Positions 17,643 to 41,419 of a DNA stretch of 64,000 bases are shown here, piece by piece. The translations under genes were made by a program, and so were the position numbers. The DNA is taken from positions 1-64,000 of the forward strand of contig JAMDDD010000005.1 in the NCBI GenBank assembly GCA_023489275.1, written 5' to 3'. Positions within the stretch are counted from its first letter, which is position 1, and each line of letters opens with the position of its first letter. The stretch comes from Actinomycetota bacterium (lineage in GTDB: Bacteria > Actinomycetota > Thermoleophilia > BMS3ABIN01). The notes beneath the pieces are model-generated. The model saw only the letters and a list, made by a program, of their open reading frames with translations, was not told where the DNA came from and did no database searches.

Positions 17643-18353
17643 CTAGCCCGGCCGTAACCGCAGCTTCCACACCAGCAGCGCCGCTTCGTACACTATCCGC
17701 CGGGACATTTTGGACTGCCCCAGCTCCCTGTCGGCGAAAGTAATCGGGATCTCCTTAACCCGGAATCCTTTTCGGAGGGCCTGATACGTGAGCTCGATCT
17801 GGAATCCGTAACCCTGTGAAGAAACCGCGTTCAGATCAAGCGTTTCCAGCACCTGGCGGCGGAAACATTTCAGCCCCCCGGTCAGGTCATTTATCTTCAC
17901 TCCCAGAATCATTTTGGCATACATGCCGCCGCCGCGGCTGATGAGCCTCCGCCCGAGGCCCCAGTTCTCCACGCGCCCGCCCGCCACATAACGGGAGCCA
18001 ATGACGAGATCGGCGTCTTCGGCCGCGTCCAGCAAGACAGGCAGATATGCCGGATCATGCGAGAAGTCGCAGTCCATCTCGAGGATAAAATCAGTGTCGG
18101 TCTTAAGCGCCTCTTTAAAACCGGCCAGATACGCCGGGCCGATCCCCTGCTTTTCCGACCGGTGGAGGACAGACAGGTTACCGTATTGCCCGGCCAGCCG
18201 GTCAGCAATCTCGCCGGTCCCGTCCGGGGAGTTGTCGTCGACGACAATGATGCGCCCGCCGAGCCCGCCGGCAGCGAATACTTCCTGAAGCTTACTGACA
18301 AAGCGCTCCAGGTTCTCGCACTCGTTATACGTAGGCAGGATAATTGTGAACAT
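17643..18353 (-). CDS. Polyprenol monophosphomannose synthase-like GT2
   Basis: IILPTYNECENLERF, IVVDDNSPDGTGEIAD, MDCDFSHDPAYLP. Confidence 0.92.
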   Translation of the reverse strand: MFTIILPTYNECENLERFVSKLQEVFAAGGLGGRIIVVDDNSPDGTGEIADRLAGQYGNLSVLHRSEKQGIGPAYLAGFKEALKTDTDFILEMDCDFSHDPAYLPVLLDAAEDADLVIGSRYVAGGRVENWGLGRRLISRGGGMYAKMILGVKINDLTGGLKCFRRQVLETLDLNAVSSQGYGFQIELTYQALRKGFRVKEIPITFADRELGQSKMSRRIVYEAALLVWKLRLRPG

Positions 18354-20362: not shown

Positions 20363-22813
20363 GTGAGCATCATGAGCGATCCGGGAACAAACAAGATTCT
20401 TTTACCGATCGAGGGTATGTCCTGCGCCTCTTGCGTCGAACGGAACGCCCGGGCGCTGAGGCTGCTTCCGGGCGTGGCCAGGGCGGACGTCAACTTCGCC
20501 ACCGAGAAGGCGACAGTCGAGTTCGATCCGGCTATCATCTCTCCGGCCGAACTGGTCGCGGCCGTTCAGAAAGCTGGCTACAAGGTGATCACCGAGAAGG
20601 TGACGCTCGCCGTCGGCGGCATGTCCTGCGCGTCCTGCGTCGATCGGGTGGAAAAGGCGCTGGCAAAGGCTCCCGGCGTTATTTCCGCTTCCGTGAATTT
20701 TGCTACTGAAAAAGCCACCGTTGAGTTCATCGCCGGCGCGGCCACGGTGGCCGGCCTCGCCACCGTGGTGGAAAAAGCGGGCTACAAGGTGCGCGGAACC
20801 GAGGTGGCGGGCGCCGCCGGAACCGGCGAGGCGGAAGACATCGAAGCCCGGTCGAGGCGGCGTGAGTACCGGCGCCTAAAATTGAAAGTGGCTGCCGGCG
20901 CGGTTATTTCGGTTCCGGTGTTTCTCGGGAGCATGTTCAGCCTGGGGCCGCTTAGCAATATGTACGTTTTGTGGGCGCTGGCCACCCCGGTGCAGTTCTG
21001 GGTGGGGCGGCAGTTCTTTTCCGGCGCCGTGGCGGCGGCCCGCCACCGGTCGGCAAACATGAATACGCTGGTGGCGGTCGGGTCCCTGTCTGCCTATCTG
21101 TACAGCGTTTCCGGCGTTCTCTTCCATTCTTTCTACCAGCAGCGGGGGCTGGCGCTGCCGATGTACTTCGATACCGCCGCCATCATCATCACCCTGATCC
21201 TTTTTGGTCGCATGCTTGAGGCCCGGGCCAAGGGTCAGACCTCAGAGGCGATCAAGAAGCTGATCGGCCTGAAGCCGAAAACGGCACGGGTGGTCCGGGA
21301 CGGGACTGAAACAGACGTGCCCGTCGAGGAAGTTTTGGTTGACGATCTGGTTGTGGTCCGCCCGGGAGAAAAGGTGCCGGTAGACGGCGTTGTCGTTCAG
21401 GGCGAGTCAAGCGTTGATGAATCGATGATCAGTGGTGAAAGCATGCCGGTGGCAAAATCCCCGGGGGACGAAGTGATCGGCGCCACCGTCAACAGGCTTG
21501 GCAGCTTCCGCTTTCGCGCCAGCCGGGTGGGCAAAGAGACAGCGTTGGCACAAATCATCCAGTTGGTTCAAGACGCTCAGGGCTCGAAGCCCCCGATTGC
21601 CCGCCTCGCCGATGTGATCGCCGGTTATTTCGTGCCGGGCGTTTTTGCCGCCGCCGGGATCACGTTTGTTATCTGGATTATCTTTGGCCCGGAGCCGGCG
21701 TTTACCCGGGCGCTGCTCAGTTTTGTGGCCGTGCTTGTTATCGCCTGCCCCTGCGCTCTGGGGCTGGCGACGCCGACGGCGATCATGGTTGGCACCGGCA
21801 AGGGAGCGGAGGCAGGCGTGCTGATCCGGGGTGGGGATTCGCTGGAGACGGCTCATAAGCTGGATACGATCGTGCTGGACAAAACGGGCACGATTACTCG
21901 CGGCGAGCCGGCTGTGACTGACATCTTTGCCGACGGGTGGGATGAAAACCGGATTCTGGAGCTGGCCGCCGCCGCCGAGCGCGGCTCGGAACATCCGCTG
22001 GGAGAAGCCATTGTTGCCGGCGCTTTAAGCCGGGGGATCGCCGCCGGTGAGGCGGAGCGATTTCAGGCGGTGGCGGGACAGGGCATCGAGGCCACCGTCG
22101 CCGGGCGCCGCGTGCTCATCGGCAATCAGGCACTGCTTGAGGGGCGGGGCATCGAACTCGACGGGCTTCAGGAACGCGCCCAGATGCTCGCCGGCGAGGG
22201 GAAAACGCCGATGCTGATGGCCGTTGACGAACGGCCGGCGGCGGTTTTCGGCCTGGCGGATACGATCAAGGATGGTTCCCGCGAGGCGGTGGCTGCCCTT
22301 AAGCGCCTGGGGCTGGAAGTGGTAATGCTGACCGGCGACAACCGGCGGACGGCGGACGCCATCGGCATGGAAGCCGGGGTTGACCGGGTGCTGGCAGAGG
22401 TGCAGCCGGCCGGCAAGGCGCGCGAGGTGGAGCGGCTCCAGGCGGCAGGAAGGAAAGTGGCAATGGTCGGGGACGGGATCAACGACGCGCCGGCGCTGGC
22501 CCAGGCGGATATTGGCATCGCAATCGGCACCGGGACGGATGTGGCCATGGAGGCGGCTGACGTTACCCTGATCTCGGGGGACCTCAAAGGGGTGGTGACG
22601 TCAATTTCACTAAGCCGCCGGACCATCCAGATCATCCGGCAGAATCTGTTCTGGGCGTTCTTTTACAACACGGCCCTGATTCCCATAGCGGCGGGGATCC
22701 TGTATCCTTTTTTTGGCGTAATGCTGAATCCGATTTTCGCTGCCGCCGCCATGGGCATGTCGTCGGTGACCGTGGTGAGCAACTCGTTGCGGCTCAGGCG
22801 GTTTAACCCCTAA
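20363..22813 (+). CDS. copA: Copper-translocating P-type ATPase with two N-terminal HMA domains
   Basis: Two GMSCASC motifs, [47 protein letters not shown]. Confidence 0.94.
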
Positions 22814-33504: not shown

Positions 33505-34134
33505 ATCGTTCCTCCAGTGGTTTTTTTGGATTGTTCCATATACAGATTACCCGATTGACGCCAAACAAATATAGTTATTATCATATTTTAATAAGATATC
33601 AAGACACGGGAAAGTATTATTTCCCACCAGCTGCGTTTCCTCAACCGGCCATTTTTCAGCAGGAAAAAGGCCTGACAAAATCAGTCAAAAATTGCGAAAA
33701 GTGCTGCTTATGGCAATACCCCGGGGGGCTTATAGTGGACCAAATTTGAGTTTGCTTAATCATGAATATAAATAATATGCATCATGTAAAAAGCGAATAT
33801 TAGAGTAAACTTCTTGCATTAAGAGCGTCTTTATCAACTATCTGTGGTGCATGGTAGCGCAGTAACGGTGGTTGGGTAAGACTTGATCTTGACCGGCTAA
33901 CGCGGAAACTGGCCCCGGTGGAGTTACCCGGTCTTCTGATATGCGAGTCAGCTCATGAATTTGAGGCCCTTCTTTTCCGGAACCGTTAATGTGTTCCCGC
34001 GACCCCGGATCTTGGGCGCTCTGGAGGTCCAGGAAAACGTCTACTCGGGGGAGTAGGAGGTGATGGAAAGGTTTAATGCAGAAAGTTGTTTTCAGCCCTA
34101 ACCAGAATTCGACTAGGAGGAGGAGGGTGAAGGA

Positions 34135-37100
34135 ATGAAGAGCAGTTTCGGAGGTAATCGCAAGCTGCGGATCCTGTTGGTTATCGCTCCGCTGGCTTTG
34201 CTGATAATCCTGGCGGTAGCAACGCTGGGGCTTTCCAGCGGCGCCGCGGTGACTCAATATCAAAGTACGGCTGTACCGGGCAATTACGGCGTCAGCAACC
34301 AGATGCTTTATGTCGCCAACGGCACCGACAGCAATGTCAAGGTAATTGACGTGGGCAGCATGAGTGTCGTCGACACCGTTCCGGTGCCGGCCCAGCCGGA
34401 CGGCCTGCAGGGCCTCGGCTTGAACTGGGAGGTCCACGGCGTTGTCCCGTCGGCCGACAGAAGCAGCCTCTACACGGTGGGCGCTCTCTCGGGCGGCTAC
34501 TTAAATGGCAGCAATTGTGACGGCGGCTGCGGTTATCACATTTCCCAGATCAACACCAAGACCAAAACTGAGATTAGGACCATCCCGCTGCCGACCGCCG
34601 CTTACGACCCGGTTGGCTACTGCGGCCTGGAGTACAACCTCAACAACGTCAACTCGAACTACCTGATCGCGGCAACAATGAACACCACGGACGCCAATCT
34701 GACGAACATGTTTGGCGCCCCGAATCTGGGTCGCACGCCGCAGCAAATGTTAGGCGGCTGGGCCAGTGTCAACCTGACTACCGGCTCGTCCACGTTCCTG
34801 AGCACCGACCAGAACGGCGACGGAGAATCAGGCACCTGCGGTATCGCCTGGAACGCCGCCGGCACGAAGGGCTACGCCTCGCAGATGTTCTCGCCGTTCA
34901 TCGCCACGATCAACTGGGATGCGGCCACGGCCACCGGCACGCTCACGGGCTCGGCCATCGACGCTCCCGCCAACAGCGGCATGTATCATCAGGAAACAAC
35001 AGACCCGTCCACCAATACCCTGTATGCGGCGAACGAGCAGCTCATCGATGTGATCGACATGAACACCGATACACGGATCACCACCATCGACATGTCCAAG
35101 CTGCTGGGCGCTACGGCTCCGCTGCATACGCATTCTGTGGACTTCACCGATGCGGGCGGCCACAAGGTGCTGTACGCGACGGTGCGGGATTATCCCGACA
35201 ACAGCCAGGCAAGCATCGTGGCGCTTGACGTCAGCAATGTAAACAGCCCGGTAGTGATCGGTGAGACCCAGGGTCTTAACTACGAAGCCTGCGGCGTCTA
35301 CGCCGATCCCAATAAGAGCCTGTACTACAAGGCTTCGGGGATCATCAGCGGCGCTCAGAGCGCTGCCGACGCCGTATATGGCATAACGGTTACCGCCGGT
35401 GGCAGCAATTACACTTCGGTGCCGACGGTGACGATCAGCGGCGGTGGCGGCAGCGGCGCCAGCGCGTCAGTCAGCGTTTATAACGGTTCTGTCAACGCCA
35501 TCAACCTCCTCTCCGGCGGCGGCGGCTACACCACCGCTCCGACGGTGACGATCAGCGGCGGTGGCGGCAGCGGCGCGACGGCGACGGCTTCGATCGTCCC
35601 GGTTGCTCCGTTCAACCATAACGCTCTCGCTAACGACCTGCTGTTCATCGCCGGCGGCCGCGACAGCAACGTCAAGGTCGTCGACCCGAGCTCGATGAGC
35701 ATCGTGGACAAGATCCCGGTGCCGGACGAGGTCACGCCTGGTACGCCGGGAAATCCGACCACCTGCGTCAACTTGCCCTACTATGGCTGCACCAACCTGT
35801 ACAGCCTCAATCCTGCCTTGATGGATTGGGAGGTCCATGGTGTTTCTGTTTCGCCCGACCGCACCAAGATCTATGCGCAGGGCGCCCTCTCCGGCGGCAG
35901 TTACGCGACGCCGGGCGACTTAAACAGCACGTTCAACGTGGGCGACTACAAGCTGTACACGATCGGCACGGCGGATAAGCAGCTCCAGCGCGCAGATTCC
36001 CTGCAGCAGGCCAGTGACCCGGTAAATCCGGTTGGCTTCTGCGGCATGGAATACGACCTGAATAACGAGAACGCGAACTACATGATCTCGACATCGATGA
36101 ACGCCAGCAACGCCACGCTCAAAGGCGCTCTGAGCGGCGCCGATCTCTCGAACGTGCGCGGCAGCGGTTATAACGAGCACGGCGGTTGGTACATCTTCAA
36201 CCTGTCGACGCATCAGAACGTCAGCTTCCTCGACACGTACGATTCGGCGGCGGGCGAGGTCAACAATGAGTCCTCCACCTGCGGCATTGCCTGGAATGCG
36301 AGCGGCACGAACGCTTACGCATCGCAGATGTTCCAGCCGTTTATCGACACAATAAGCTGGACGCCGGAGGCCGGGACTAATCCGCCCAGTGGTACTGTGA
36401 CCGGCAACCTGACGCTGACGTCAGAAGCAAGTGGCGGCATGCACCAGGAATCCTCGGATAAAACGAATGGAATCCTGTATGTAAGCGATGATAGCGGTTA
36501 TCTGGATGCTTATAGCATGACTACTAACACAGCGATTGGCGAGATCAACATTCGCGGCCTCACCGGTTCGCCGAATGTTATGGTCCACAGCGTTGAGGTG
36601 TCTCCGAGCGACCCAAGCGTCATCTATGTGCAGGGTCATGACTTGCCAGAAAATCCGGCAGGCACGGTCGATCCGGACAAGGGCGCCACTGAAGGCGGCG
36701 TTGCTGTCATCAAGATCGACGACTTCGCAAACCCGGGCAGCTCGGCGCACGTGCTGGGAATCATCCCGGATATGGGCTATAACTCCTGCGGCGTGTATGC
36801 GATCCCCGACAAATCAACCTGGCAGGCAGTCCAGAACGCGGTCAAGCCAGCGCTGTCACTGACAAAGGGCAACGTGTACTGGGCCTCGTACAGCGACTAT
36901 ACGAACCACCAGCTGTCGGTTGACTTCACGGTCAACGCGGCAGCGACAAGCTCGGCGGCGAGCGGCGTGCAGATTACCGGCGCCACCTTCGACCGGGCCG
37001 GCGTGTCCCTGGCAACCCCGATGCCGCTTTCGCTTGGCGATTTCGGCGCCGGCGGCAGCGCCTCGTTCACGCTCAAGTACGACGTTTCCAGCCTGGTTGG

Positions 37101-37161
37101 CAACGTGTTCAAGACAACCACCGATGCATCTGCCGATGGCGGCGCGTGGACCTATCCCTAA
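34135..37161 (+). CDS. Exported protein with two homologous beta-propeller-like halves and a C-terminal domain shared with 39358..41241
   Basis: N-terminal TM/signal ILLVIAPLALLIILAVATLGL; halves LYVANGTDSNVKVIDVGSMSVVDTVPVP / LLFIAGGRDSNVKVVDPSSMSIVDKIPVP; RBS aggaggaggg. Confidence 0.9.
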   Translation: MKSSFGGNRKLRILLVIAPLALLIILAVATLGLSSGAAVTQYQSTAVPGNYGVSNQMLYVANGTDSNVKVIDVGSMSVVDTVPVPAQPDGLQGLGLNWEVHGVVPSADRSSLYTVGALSGGYLNGSNCDGGCGYHISQINTKTKTEIRTIPLPTAAYDPVGYCGLEYNLNNVNSNYLIAATMNTTDANLTNMFGAPNLGRTPQQMLGGWASVNLTTGSSTFLSTDQNGDGESGTCGIAWNAAGTKGYASQMFSPFIATINWDAATATGTLTGSAIDAPANSGMYHQETTDPSTNTLYAANEQLIDVIDMNTDTRITTIDMSKLLGATAPLHTHSVDFTDAGGHKVLYATVRDYPDNSQASIVALDVSNVNSPVVIGETQGLNYEACGVYADPNKSLYYKASGIISGAQSAADAVYGITVTAGGSNYTSVPTVTISGGGGSGASASVSVYNGSVNAINLLSGGGGYTTAPTVTISGGGGSGATATASIVPVAPFNHNALANDLLFIAGGRDSNVKVVDPSSMSIVDKIPVPDEVTPGTPGNPTTCVNLPYYGCTNLYSLNPALMDWEVHGVSVSPDRTKIYAQGALSGGSYATPGDLNSTFNVGDYKLYTIGTADKQLQRADSLQQASDPVNPVGFCGMEYDLNNENANYMISTSMNASNATLKGALSGADLSNVRGSGYNEHGGWYIFNLSTHQNVSFLDTYDSAAGEVNNESSTCGIAWNASGTNAYASQMFQPFIDTISWTPEAGTNPPSGTVTGNLTLTSEASGGMHQESSDKTNGILYVSDDSGYLDAYSMTTNTAIGEINIRGLTGSPNVMVHSVEVSPSDPSVIYVQGHDLPENPAGTVDPDKGATEGGVAVIKIDDFANPGSSAHVLGIIPDMGYNSCGVYAIPDKSTWQAVQNAVKPALSLTKGNVYWASYSDYTNHQLSVDFTVNAAATSSAASGVQITGATFDRAGVSLATPMPLSLGDFGAGGSASFTLKYDVSSLVGNVFKTTTDASADGGAWTYP
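35422..35576 (+). repeat. 38-nt perfect direct repeat encoding PTVTISGGGGSGA
   Basis: ccgacggtgacgatcagcggcggtggcggcagcggcgc at 35422-35459 and 35539-35576. Confidence 0.95.
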
Positions 37162-37223
37162 ATGAGCGGGACTAGGGAAAACGGAGAACGTCATTGATCA
37201 AGCTAAGTAAAAAGGAGAACGTT

Positions 37224-37349
37224 ATGGCTAAGAAAAGCCAGCGGGAGCCTTACGCTAAGCCTGAGCTGGTGAAGCACGAGAACCTGAAGGAAATTACCTT
37301 CGAGTGCTCGGGCTGGCAGTGCAGCGTAGTGGTTCCGTCAGCGCCGTAA
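37224..37349 (+). CDS. 41-aa RiPP-precursor-like peptide (copy 1), not in supplied ORF track
   Basis: ATG at 37224 with aaaaaggagaacgtt upstream; MAKKSQREPYAKPELVKHENLKEITFECSGWQCSVVVPSAP*; paralog at 41294. Confidence 0.88.
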   Translation: MAKKSQREPYAKPELVKHENLKEITFECSGWQCSVVVPSAP

Positions 37350-37384: not shown

Positions 37385-37417
37385 CGGGAGGGCCGGCCTC
37401 GCGGGCCGGCCCTCCCG
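37385..37417 (+). terminator. Perfect 14-bp GC-rich hairpin after peptide 1 (no clear U-tract)
   Basis: cgggagggccggcc-tcgcg-ggccggccctcccg. Confidence 0.65.
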
Positions 37418-37507: not shown

Positions 37508-38092
37508 ATGAAAGCTGTAGCAGGCCAGAACCGGAACGGGAAATGGAGAGGTTCACAGGGAATGATGGCGGTGGCCGCGATGGCGCTGCTTGCCTTCACC
37601 ATCATCATCGCGGGATGCGGCGGGGGGTCTGGAAACACAACAGCCTCACAGCTTAATAGCAAGTCAACAGGCACAACAGGGAAAACAGTGGCCTCAACAC
37701 ACAAAACTGGCACGACCGCTACTGTTCCCGGGGTTATGGGAAACCAGCAGGTGCTGGCCGGATATACCGCGGACCAGTGCATGTCCGACTTGACGGCGCG
37801 GTACGGAAGCAGTGACGTTGCCGCTCAGGCATGCGCCCAGATCAACAAGGATTACGGAAGTTCCGTGCCCCGCAGCCAGCTAACCACCACTGTTTTGCCT
37901 AAAATCGAGCAGCAACATCCGAACTGGAAACCGGTGCAGCCGGGAACTCCGCCGCCGTCGCCCGCACCGTCTCAACCGACGTCTGGCGGGCAGTCGCCGC
38001 CAGGAGGATCGGGCGGCACGAGCACGGGCGGCTGGTCCGGCGGCGGTATTCCGATCACGGTGCCGGGGCAGCCCGGAGGTAACGGCCCCTAA
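37508..38092 (+). CDS. Lipoprotein with Pro/Gly/Ser-rich C-terminus
   Basis: AAMALLAFTIIIAGCGGG lipobox; TPPPSPAPSQPTSGGQSPPGGSGG tail. Confidence 0.8.
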   Translation: MKAVAGQNRNGKWRGSQGMMAVAAMALLAFTIIIAGCGGGSGNTTASQLNSKSTGTTGKTVASTHKTGTTATVPGVMGNQQVLAGYTADQCMSDLTARYGSSDVAAQACAQINKDYGSSVPRSQLTTTVLPKIEQQHPNWKPVQPGTPPPSPAPSQPTSGGQSPPGGSGGTSTGGWSGGGIPITVPGQPGGNGP

Positions 38093-38145
38093 GGCCGGAC
38101 GGCCGGCGCGGCCCAGCGACAATGACAGGTTATAAGGGGAAGAAA

Positions 38146-39171
38146 ATGCTTGACAGTCTAAGTGAGATCATGGGTCAACGGTTCAGCGACGCCAAGCCAA
38201 ATGCGGCGACGTATGACGTGCACGGCGTCGTCACAAAAGTCTATGCGGATGACCATCTGCTGGCGCTGGCGATCCAGGATTTCCTGAGGCCTTTCCGCGG
38301 CCTGCCGGGCGCAGAGCCGGACATCGAGTTCTATCTCCTGACCAAGCCGGATGGCGACAAGGATGCCGGCGGCAGCTTCCGGGCAGCGGAGCTCCTGTAT
38401 GACTGGAAGGTCCTCCGCTACAGCCGGGAAGGCCAGCTGCGGTATCAGGAAGTGCCCGGCGCCGGCTCGGTCGCGGCGGATCTCGATGCCGGACTGGCAG
38501 TGGCATTTGTGGATAGTGGCATGTCGGCGCGGGCCTGGTCTGTGGCGCATGTGATCTTCTTCCCGATCTGGGCTCAGCTTCTGAAGGTAAAAGGCCTTTT
38601 CCCCGTGCATGCGGCCGGCATGGAGCGGCAGGGGTGCGGTCTTCTCTTTCCCGGAAGGAGCGGCAGCGGAAAGTCCACCCTGTCATTGCAGCTCTTGCGG
38701 CGCGGCTTCCGGCTGCTGGGAGACGATACGGTCTTTGTCAGGGCAAATTCCCATGATGGTGCGGACATGCTCTTCTTTCCGGAGGAAGTTGATGTCTGCC
38801 CGGAGACGGTGGACCTGTTCCCCCAGCTGGCTTTGGCGCGAAATCTGACCGAGGATCGCTGGCAGCCCAAGACCAGGGTGAATCTCGGCGATGTCAGATC
38901 GAGCCAGGTGATCGAATCTGCGGCAGTCAACCTGCTCGTATTCCCGGTTATCGCCCGCGACGGCTGCACGCGTTACGAACGGATCGGGCAGACGGAGGCC
39001 CTGGCGGAGCTGATTCTGTTCGCCTTCCTGTTTATGGACCCGGAGACCAGCAAGGAAAACTTTGGTCTGCTGGCGGGTCTGGTGCGCAGGGCAGGCTGTT
39101 TCCGGCTCCACATGGGCCTGGACGGCGGTGAGCTTGCCAAAGCTGTTGACGAAATGGTAGCTAGAGTATAA
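38146..39171 (+). CDS. HPr kinase/phosphorylase-like P-loop protein (HprK-related kinase)
   Basis: FPVHAAGMERQGCGLLFPGRSGSGKSTLSLQLLRRGFRLLGDDTVFV; start set at ATG 38146 after aaggggaagaaa. Confidence 0.85.
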   Translation: MLDSLSEIMGQRFSDAKPNAATYDVHGVVTKVYADDHLLALAIQDFLRPFRGLPGAEPDIEFYLLTKPDGDKDAGGSFRAAELLYDWKVLRYSREGQLRYQEVPGAGSVAADLDAGLAVAFVDSGMSARAWSVAHVIFFPIWAQLLKVKGLFPVHAAGMERQGCGLLFPGRSGSGKSTLSLQLLRRGFRLLGDDTVFVRANSHDGADMLFFPEEVDVCPETVDLFPQLALARNLTEDRWQPKTRVNLGDVRSSQVIESAAVNLLVFPVIARDGCTRYERIGQTEALAELILFAFLFMDPETSKENFGLLAGLVRRAGCFRLHMGLDGGELAKAVDEMVARV

Positions 39172-39261: not shown

Positions 39262-39357
39262 GGCAGGAAAAAGGAGGGGTGGGACCGCTTAATGGCCGCG
39301 GGCCCGCACAAAGTCCGCTCCTAGCGGAAAAAACACTAGAGGATGAAGGGAGGAAGT

Positions 39358-41241
39358 ATGCAAATCAGTTCAAAATTGCTTCGCACGGCGATTCTCGTTC
39401 TGGGGCTGATGGTAGCGCTTGGGCTTTATCTGAGCCTGAGCCTTGGACGCATCAGCACGGCCAAGGGCGTCGTCAGCGCCTGTAGCGGAACTGACTGGCA
39501 GAAAGTCCAATGCTACGCGGATAAGTACATCCAGAACCAGTATCCGGGCGCCAGCGTTGGCGAAGGCGAAGGCAGCGTCGCCGCCGCGCAAAGCACGCCC
39601 TCGGGTTTCTACGTAAACCAGGCAACGCTCAAGAGTAAAGTTGACTCTAACGGTGACGGCACCTATCTGGGTGAGGGCGACGACCTGGCCAAGGCGCCGG
39701 TTCTGATCGACAACCTGAACCAGTTTACGACCTTGATTCCAGGCACCACCTTCCGTTGCAACTGGAATGAGAACAGCTGCTTCGAGCCGGGATCGGTGGC
39801 CGACGTCAAGACACAGGTGGATGACCACGAAGCAGCCACCGGTCAGGTACCGGCTATTGTTGATTACTGCCTGACCGACCACACGGCGGCGCCGACCACC
39901 GGCGCCTGGGGCTACATCGCCCAGACCGGCGGCCTGGCCACCGACGGCTCCATCCCCAAGGTCTACGGCTTTACCTGGGGACGTGACGGCTGGACCAACA
40001 CGCCGGTTAACAGCGGCTCCACCACCACCAACGGCATCTACACGTACTCCAATACGTATCCAGTCACTTCTCCGGCCGCGACTGCTACCTACACGCCACC
40101 GTCCACGGTGCCGGGCAGTTGCACCAGCGCCGGCGGCGACGCCGACCTGGTCCGCTGCGCGGCTGAGTGGGCCATCAGCCAGGATGCCGGTGAAGGCAAC
40201 GTTGGCAACGGCCAGAATGTGGGCGCCACCATGACCGCCGGCCAGGTGGTTGATGTTAGAGCGGATACGCCTGCAAGCACCGTGAACCTGAACGGTTCCC
40301 TGGCTGCGAATCAGATCCCGATCAACACTATCTTCAACACCGGTCTGGCTAACGTCAATCCGGCGGCAACGAGCGGCGTTCTCATCGCCAGCGGCTCCCA
40401 GGGACCGGGCGGCATCGTCGCCGAGGGTCTCAGGATGCTGGGATACACCACCGCCACCGGCGGCTATATCCATAGCGGCGTGCCGTACTATAACAACACC
40501 CTGTCGGTAAGCCAGGGACAGCCGAACACCGGCACAGCTTACCCGCTCGATGCGGTCACGGCGCAGTGCACCGCTCCCAGCAACGGCTGCAACCAGATCT
40601 ATGGTACTCAGGATCTGGGCGCGGAGATGAACACCACCGCGGCGGCGATCAGCAGCTCCAGCGCTACGGACACCGGTGACACGACCGCGACGGTCAGCAG
40701 GACGACGAGTCAGCCGGCTACCACCAAGATCGATCTGACCGGTTCTGACAGCTCTGCCGTACATGTCAACAACACCATCCTGCACGCCAGCGACACGGAG
40801 AACCTGACCGGCCTGCATCCGGGTGTGACCTATACCGGCACGCTGAGCGTCTACAACAACATGGCGCTGGTTTCCAGCACGCCGATCAGCTTCACGACGA
40901 GCGGCATCGCCTGCGCCAAACCGGCGCTCGGGCTGACGTCACCTCCGCACGCCTACTGGGCCAGCCTGTCCGACTACAGCGCCGGCATCCTGTCGGTTGA
41001 CTTCACCATCAATAATAGCGCCGTCAGCCCGAACGCGGTGGGTGTCCAGATCACCGGCAGCGCCAGCAACAACGGCGTCACCGTCAACTCCGGCATACCT
41101 TCGGCGGCGACCAACATCGCCTCTGGCGGCTCGGCTACGGTGACGGTCACGTACCACATTCCCGCGGGCGTCACATGGTTCCACACAAGCCTGACCGTGA
41201 GCGCCCAGGATGAATGCGGAAACTCGTATACGTATCCCTAG
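39358..41241 (+). CDS. Exported protein with tandem rhodanese-like domains, FnIII-like region and shared C-terminal domain
   Basis: Signal/TM LLRTAILVLGLMVALGLYLSLSLG; VPAIVDYCLTDHTAAPTTGAWGYIAQTGG...KVYGFTWGRDGW; second GVLIASGSQGPGGIVAEGLRMLGYTTATGGY without Cys. Confidence 0.8.
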   Translation: MQISSKLLRTAILVLGLMVALGLYLSLSLGRISTAKGVVSACSGTDWQKVQCYADKYIQNQYPGASVGEGEGSVAAAQSTPSGFYVNQATLKSKVDSNGDGTYLGEGDDLAKAPVLIDNLNQFTTLIPGTTFRCNWNENSCFEPGSVADVKTQVDDHEAATGQVPAIVDYCLTDHTAAPTTGAWGYIAQTGGLATDGSIPKVYGFTWGRDGWTNTPVNSGSTTTNGIYTYSNTYPVTSPAATATYTPPSTVPGSCTSAGGDADLVRCAAEWAISQDAGEGNVGNGQNVGATMTAGQVVDVRADTPASTVNLNGSLAANQIPINTIFNTGLANVNPAATSGVLIASGSQGPGGIVAEGLRMLGYTTATGGYIHSGVPYYNNTLSVSQGQPNTGTAYPLDAVTAQCTAPSNGCNQIYGTQDLGAEMNTTAAAISSSSATDTGDTTATVSRTTSQPATTKIDLTGSDSSAVHVNNTILHASDTENLTGLHPGVTYTGTLSVYNNMALVSSTPISFTTSGIACAKPALGLTSPPHAYWASLSDYSAGILSVDFTINNSAVSPNAVGVQITGSASNNGVTVNSGIPSAATNIASGGSATVTVTYHIPAGVTWFHTSLTVSAQDECGNSYTYP

Positions 41242-41293: not shown

Positions 41294-41419
41294 ATGACCA
41301 AAGAAACAATGCGGGAACCCTATGCCAAGCCTGAGCTGGTGAAGCACGAGAACCTGAAGGAAATCACCTTCGAGTGCTCGGGCTGGCAGTGTAGCGTAGT
41401 GGTTCCGCCGGCGCCTTAA
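41294..41419 (+). CDS. 41-aa RiPP-precursor-like peptide (copy 2), not in supplied ORF track
   Basis: ATG at 41294 with aagaggagaaaccgca upstream; MTKETMREPYAKPELVKHENLKEITFECSGWQCSVVVPPAP*; an in-frame ATG at 41258 could give a 53-aa form. Confidence 0.88.
   Translation: MTKETMREPYAKPELVKHENLKEITFECSGWQCSVVVPPAP

Follow-up and report, generated by a model that had tools for sequence, protein, structure and literature searches.

Our main conclusion is that the 41-codon open reading frame studied here, judged from its sequence and from that of its relatives, is a real gene. With a probability of roughly 60%, these genes encode the precursors of one RiPP system that is dispersed over the genome, spans the family, is of lasso descent and has no cyclase, and that would yield a linear peptide, phosphorylated at core Ser8 and cut from its leader by B2. 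The gene lies in the window, by which we mean the whole 64,000-nucleotide stretch of DNA that was analysed, and its neighborhood is given in Table 1.

Table 1. Features of the peptide cluster in the window
Feature	Position	Strand	Details
Surface protein 1	34135..37161	+	1008 aa; N-terminus a hydrophobic signal/anchor, then YVTN-type beta-propeller repeats (TIGR02276, 31.7 bits > 27.85)
Shared C-terminal Ig-like domain (CTD) of surface protein 1	36832-37158	+	CTD HMM match
Shine-Dalgarno AAGGAG	37212-37217	+	6 nt spacer to ATG of copy 1; from sequence
Precursor peptide copy 1	37224-37349	+	ATG 37224, stop 37347-37349, 41 codons
Copy 1 leader	37224-37301	+	MAKKSQREPYAKPELVKHENLKEITF
Copy 1 predicted core	37302-37346	+	ECSGWQCSVVVPSAP; boundary predicted with the lasso Thr(-2) rule
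G+C-rich hairpin 3' of copy 1	37385-37417	+	15 bp, -37.2 kcal/mol, z -4.33
Lipoprotein-like gene	37508-38092	+	between copy 1 and kinase
HprK-like kinase Kwin	38122..39171	+	Pfam Hpr_kinase_C 37.5 bits > 33.3
Surface protein 2	39343..41241	+	632 aa
CTD of surface protein 2	40906-41238	+	CTD HMM
Precursor peptide copy 2	41294-41419	+	MTKETMREPYAKPELVKHENLKEITF / ECSGWQCSVVVPPAP; predicted core 41372-41416; 88% identical to copy 1

The peptide genes, their distribution and their anatomy

The first-pass annotation had pointed to an uncalled 41-residue frame behind a strong AAGGAG, and its start codon, spacer and translation (MAKKSQREPYAKPELVKHENLKEITFECSGWQCSVVVPSAP) are exactly as quoted there. 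In 89 of 103 copies a possible start has a Shine-Dalgarno-like motif ahead of it, compared with 9% per random start codon, a control that is approximate because several starts were allowed per copy. Among 88 distinct DNA variants the synonymous difference is near-saturated (pS 0.55-0.64) and pN/pS is 0.22-0.27. The search pattern itself shapes part of the column counts from this analysis; less affected by it are the signs of conservation in alignment A2, in copies found through leader similarity alone and in a scan that made no demand for the Thr. An identity as an Ogr/Delta zinc finger was rejected, the Pfam match (E 0.019) falling below the cut-off.

The genome that holds the window (G000; 45 contigs, 1.58 Mb) carries six copies, spread over four contigs, with E<=1.1e-14 and one further divergent copy, which makes six to seven in total. 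A possible extra precursor in the same genome was seen at L007:1426-1626 (contig C22), reading MDDFGATYAEPCLTKLGNIIDITADSVGWASSWCVNDEDDDGQSCDD. All 18 other genomes of the GTDB family have matches, 4-12 each, and a comparison set of 41 genomes drawn from the other families of the class gave none. When 349 genomes of the class were searched with a profile, the family was hit in 19 of 19 and the remainder in 2 of 330, both marginally (E 0.006 and 0.01); E-values of 41-residue queries are here backed by many independent copies. In GTDB r220 contigs the peptide occurs at 75 loci, nearly all in Thermoleophilia, Gaiellales or "Actinomycetes" MAGs such as B_ACT_11, SURF_19, BMS3Abin01 and DeMMO3_11, the outliers being one Dehalococcoidia bin and one Gemmatimonadetes locus that matches in the leader only. 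At L149:4937-5104, in a Gemmatimonadetes MAG, the leader is similar (YEKPELVRHGNLKEIT) and the core different. The viral contigs searched held no relatives of the peptide, and a viral origin was rejected on that ground.

The leader has the lasso-type layout Y-x2-P-x-L-x9-T, with the Thr exactly 15 residues after the Tyr in 103 of 107 copies, as found by a scan whose pattern did not ask for it. Some copies also carry the lasso Gly, as in L003 ("YKKPELVRLGNLKEITFEC"). A homologue, "MTDRKLITYEKPVLASLGNVKEVTFEC...", passes the lasso leader model NF033521 (lasso_leader_L3) with 19.9 over a cut-off of 19, and L003 reaches 17.0, below it. The earlier view of a lasso-type leader on a RiPP precursor is borne out by the homologue that passes this model, together with an RRE and a B2 in every adequately complete relative.

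If the boundary follows the Thr(-2) rule, the core reads E1-C2-x-x-W5-x-C7-S8-V-x-V-P-x-x-P, where position 3 is P, S or A and the conserved Ser is position 8. The first-pass annotation had made drift within CSGWQC a test of its proposal; both Cys and the Trp are held in the main family, where C-x4-C is invariant, but positions 3, 4 and 6 are variable. A divergent class retains the leader and W-x-C-S, and has C2 and the VPP tail replaced by Asp/His-rich tails (for example L257, "TFVHSYWNCSINGPDVHAGGPCDHDNPHGHN"). W-x-C-S is present in the great majority of these copies, with F or another residue for the W in a few and the C-S missing in 2 of about 17 (L250 and L262). It is thus W5-x-C7-S8, and not the Cys pair, that is common to the main family and the divergent copies. 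In L251, L252, L254-L260 and L263-L266, which have the same leader and W-x-C-S, the tails are rich in Asp, His and Gly, and metal binding could be possible. None of the inspected copies of either class has Asp or Glu at core positions 7-9, where the main family reads C-S-V and the divergent class C-S-x.

Maturation enzymes

One conserved locus, present in every relative of adequate completeness, encodes an HprK-like kinase (K1), a PqqD/RRE protein (B1) and the B2 peptidase of lasso type, and in the loci read DUF2079 is present as well. PqqD (PF05402) occurs in all 19 family genomes, and in 17 a PqqD gene follows one for an HprK-like kinase, the exceptions being the two least complete genomes. 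B2 (Transglut_core3, PF13471) is above cut-off in 16 of the 19 and adjoins B1 in all of these except G004. It passes NF033537 (lasso_biosyn_B2; 38.4 > 33), and by the lasso B2 model it is found in 16/19 genomes of the family against 23/280 other genomes of the class (Fisher p 2e-13, not phylogenetically corrected for the ancestry that family and enzymes share). B1 is closest to lasso PqqD models, at 61 bits, below the cut-off of 80 for NF033536; the B1 of the window's own genome matches the solved lasso RREs TbiB1, PbaB1 and TfuB1, and also LppB. The kinases conserve HAAG (H), GxSGxGKS and DD motifs, which match the motif of lasso precursor kinases (PMC10368454). Kwin, the kinase in the window, is 39% identical to K1 and keeps the Walker A and DD motifs; ATG 38146, with AGGGG upstream, is its likelier start than 38122.

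In the window's own genome the stretch after K1-B1 carries a gene for NTP_transf_5, one for a CTD protein and a glycan locus. NTP_transf_5 (PF14907) is above cut-off in 11 of 19 genomes, mostly on the contig of K-B1-B2. A search of the window's own assembly (92% complete) found no B2. This is best explained by the end of a contig: the one with K1-B1 (C10) aligns with contig C3 of G004 up to G004 position 18334, and the B2 of G004 lies at 21937, so that synteny predicts the missing gene about 3.6 kb beyond the end of C10.

The precursors are not adjacent to K1-B1-B2, and the pairing of precursor and enzymes is therefore based on leader type and co-occurrence. About 10 of the 19 family genomes also have loci that combine a radical SAM (rSAM) protein with PqqD, which seem like an rSAM variant of the theme of linear polyphosphorylated peptides (LPPs, see below). 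Archaeal-type signal-peptidase-I-like genes (TIGR02228 matches) lie by these loci and elsewhere. None lies beside K1-B1-B2, where B2 fills that place.

Proposed product and alternatives

The enzymes that go with the family, an HprK-like Ser kinase and in 11 genomes also an NTP transferase, point to Ser phosphorylation in the first place. In the proposed pathway B1 would bind the YxxPxL of the leader, and the kinase, acting in trans as K1 and perhaps in cis as Kwin, would phosphorylate the conserved core Ser8. B2 is predicted to cleave two residues past the start of the conserved Thr-Phe pair, with the Thr at -2, releasing a linear peptide of 15-18 residues, ECxxWxCSVxVPxxP. The calculated [M+H]+ of the unmodified core is 1548.682 for copy 1 and 1558.703 for copy 2. 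The NTP_transf_5 enzyme could extend the product at the phospho-Ser, and the product would presumably be exported and act at the cell surface with the co-encoded CTD protein.

Several other products have to be weighed against this one. A true lasso or another ring could be closed on an unusual acceptor by an ATP-dependent cyclase that is unlinked or unrecognised. Leader, B1 and B2 are all of lasso type, and most genomes have two to five Asn_synthase matches, one of which (L237, from the g6 genus) scores 178 bits with the lasso cyclase model and 199 with that of asparagine synthase. Against a ring stand the residues at core 7-9, in both classes, and G002, which is 98% complete, has 10-11 copies and has no full-length Asn_synthase. 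The Asn_synthases typed in the window's own genus (typing covers some genomes) resemble asparagine synthase or polysaccharide amidotransferases more closely than lasso cyclase, and the two on contig C4 of the window's own genome were rejected as cyclase candidates on this basis. No lasso cyclase is linked to K1-B1-B2. We consider such a ring very improbable, and the first-pass view that the product is not a classical lasso holds for every inspected core and for the linked genes. Scarcely more probable is modification, for example at Trp5 or Cys7, by the relatives' loci of rSAM, PqqD and ScmC-like kinase, some with a signal-peptidase-I-like protein. Trp and Cys, both conserved here, are residues that rSAM enzymes typically modify, and such loci also stand beside CTD genes (L181, L182, L184, L185, L187 and L196). 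However, they are absent from the window's own genome and from about half of the family, where many copies of the peptide persist, and most have no main-family peptide in the stretch that was read.

The first-pass annotation had favored a Cys-based product, in which C2 and C7 form a disulfide, bind metal or are joined enzymatically by a thioether after leader removal, with phosphorylation secondary or absent. The invariant C-x4-C of the main family speaks for this, and some divergent cores, Asp/His-rich and with a further Cys, are compatible with metal binding. But the copies are strongly homologous, which makes invariance by itself weakly informative, and the divergent class loses the first Cys and keeps W-x-C-S. 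No thioether-type enzyme is common to all genomes: the rSAM-PqqD loci reach only about half of them, and the sole PqqD gene of the window's genome is in its kinase locus. Cys-based chemistry is thus not established, and with the enzymes pointing to Ser phosphorylation we judge it unlikely, if still worth keeping in mind. It is also conceivable that the peptide is no RiPP at all and acts unmodified, for example as a partner or regulator of the surface protein encoded upstream. This would suit the position of most copies directly behind CTD genes and the lack of any operon shared with peptide machinery. It leaves the precise leader geometry, the match to the lasso leader model and the family-wide co-occurrence with RRE, B2 and kinase without a place, and we give it hardly any weight.

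Surface proteins and comparison with known systems

In the contig collection 53 of 78 copies follow a gene for a CTD-ending protein on the same strand, at a distance of 35-114 nt measured to the Tyr codon. Contig ends truncate several of the other 25, and those left are mostly a syntenic solo copy, one per genome, at a conserved hemC-side locus. Several divergent copies likewise adjoin CTD genes, before or after. Many relatives (L077, L079, L192, L193 and others) repeat, fully or partly, the order CTD, peptide, lipoprotein, kinase, CTD, peptide seen in the window, and the lipoprotein-like gene keeps its position in L075, L077, L079, L081, L084, L104 and L192-L194. The C-terminus of this lipoprotein, GWSGGGIPITVPGQP (W..GGI.I.VP..P), is similar to the tail of the peptide. 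The hairpin behind copy 1 likely marks the end of the CTD-peptide transcript; its terminator-like run of T sits on the minus strand. A rare palindrome half, CTCCCCCGAGTAG, was seen at 34041-34056 (-) of the window, near the CTD-peptide operon, and at L003:1641-1653, after another precursor copy.

The proteins that carry the CTD are otherwise unrelated, and include YVTN beta-propeller, rhodanese-like and parallel beta-helix types. AlphaFold models the CTD of surface protein 2 as an Ig-like sandwich (pLDDT 96). Its sequence similarity to CARDB/DUF11 is weak, and a structure search gave weak generic Ig-like matches (best E 5e-3), none informative for function. Behind CTD genes that have no such peptide we found no convincing short peptides of other kinds. 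A c-di-GMP-I riboswitch lies directly upstream of the CTD gene beside K1-B1 in the window's own genome (L067:13102-13180, -) and at the matching site of the close relative G004 (L269:4893-4971, -). None was found at the other scanned CTD loci, and the window cluster has no riboswitch and one sRNA match far below cut-off.

Because of this gene order we tie the peptide to the surface proteins, and a surface or biofilm role is plausible. A more specific reading, possible but on balance doubtful, is that each gene for a CTD protein comes with a lasso-leader peptide of its own, which after maturation (phosphorylation) would serve the Ig-like CTD at the cell surface as a dedicated partner, a ligand or a covalent decoration. 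If so, one central K-B1-B2 set would serve the whole surface proteome.

Among known systems, LPPs, described in Bacillota in 2026, combine HprK, RRE and NTP transferase and are linear and polyphosphorylated at Ser3 (PMC13381572). They resemble the present system in the YxxP leader, with a conserved Thr and a conserved His at comparable distances (PMC13381572), as well as in a discrete RRE, an HprK-like kinase, a link to polysaccharide loci and the lack of a cyclase; the NTP transferase of LPPs has a counterpart in the 11 of 19 genomes with NTP_transf_5. They differ in being cut by the SpI-like LppS, where we predict a lasso-type B2, and in the phosphorylated Ser, which is core 3 there and the candidate core 8 here. 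Here, too, the system belongs to Actinobacteria, spans a whole family in multiple copies and has precursors with a short Pro-rich tail, dispersed behind surface-protein genes. The phosphorylated lasso peptides paeninodin, pseudomycoidin and Bsf (PMC9266682, PMC10368454) share the leader with Thr(-2), B1, B2, the HprK-like kinase and often NTP_transf_5. In the Bsf system the kinase acts on Ser3, and B1 aids both the kinase and B2 (PMC10368454). Unlike these, our family has no linked cyclase and no ring acceptor at core 7-9, and its precursors lie apart from the enzymes. The known phosphorylated Ser are core 3 (LPP, Bsf) or C-terminal (paeninodin), which counts against core 8 here. SynChlorMet/ScmC and HPr-rel-A kinase systems (TIGR04249, TIGR04352) also pair an HprK-related kinase with a PqqD protein; the kinases here score 58-61 bits against an equivalog cut-off of 200, and the universal locus is without rSAM.

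If our main reading is correct, lasso B1 and B2 operate here without a cyclase. PMC13381572 states that no role is known for LPPs or for peptides of the paeninodin type, and an LPP-related, cyclase-less system that is universal in a bacterial family, multi-copy and linked by gene order to surface proteins offers a concrete hypothesis of role. What is new in comparison with all of these systems is the organization, with precursors dispersed over the genome, mostly behind CTD genes, plus the one syntenic solo copy. Such a layout is easily overlooked, with genes of about 40 codons that lie far from the enzymes.
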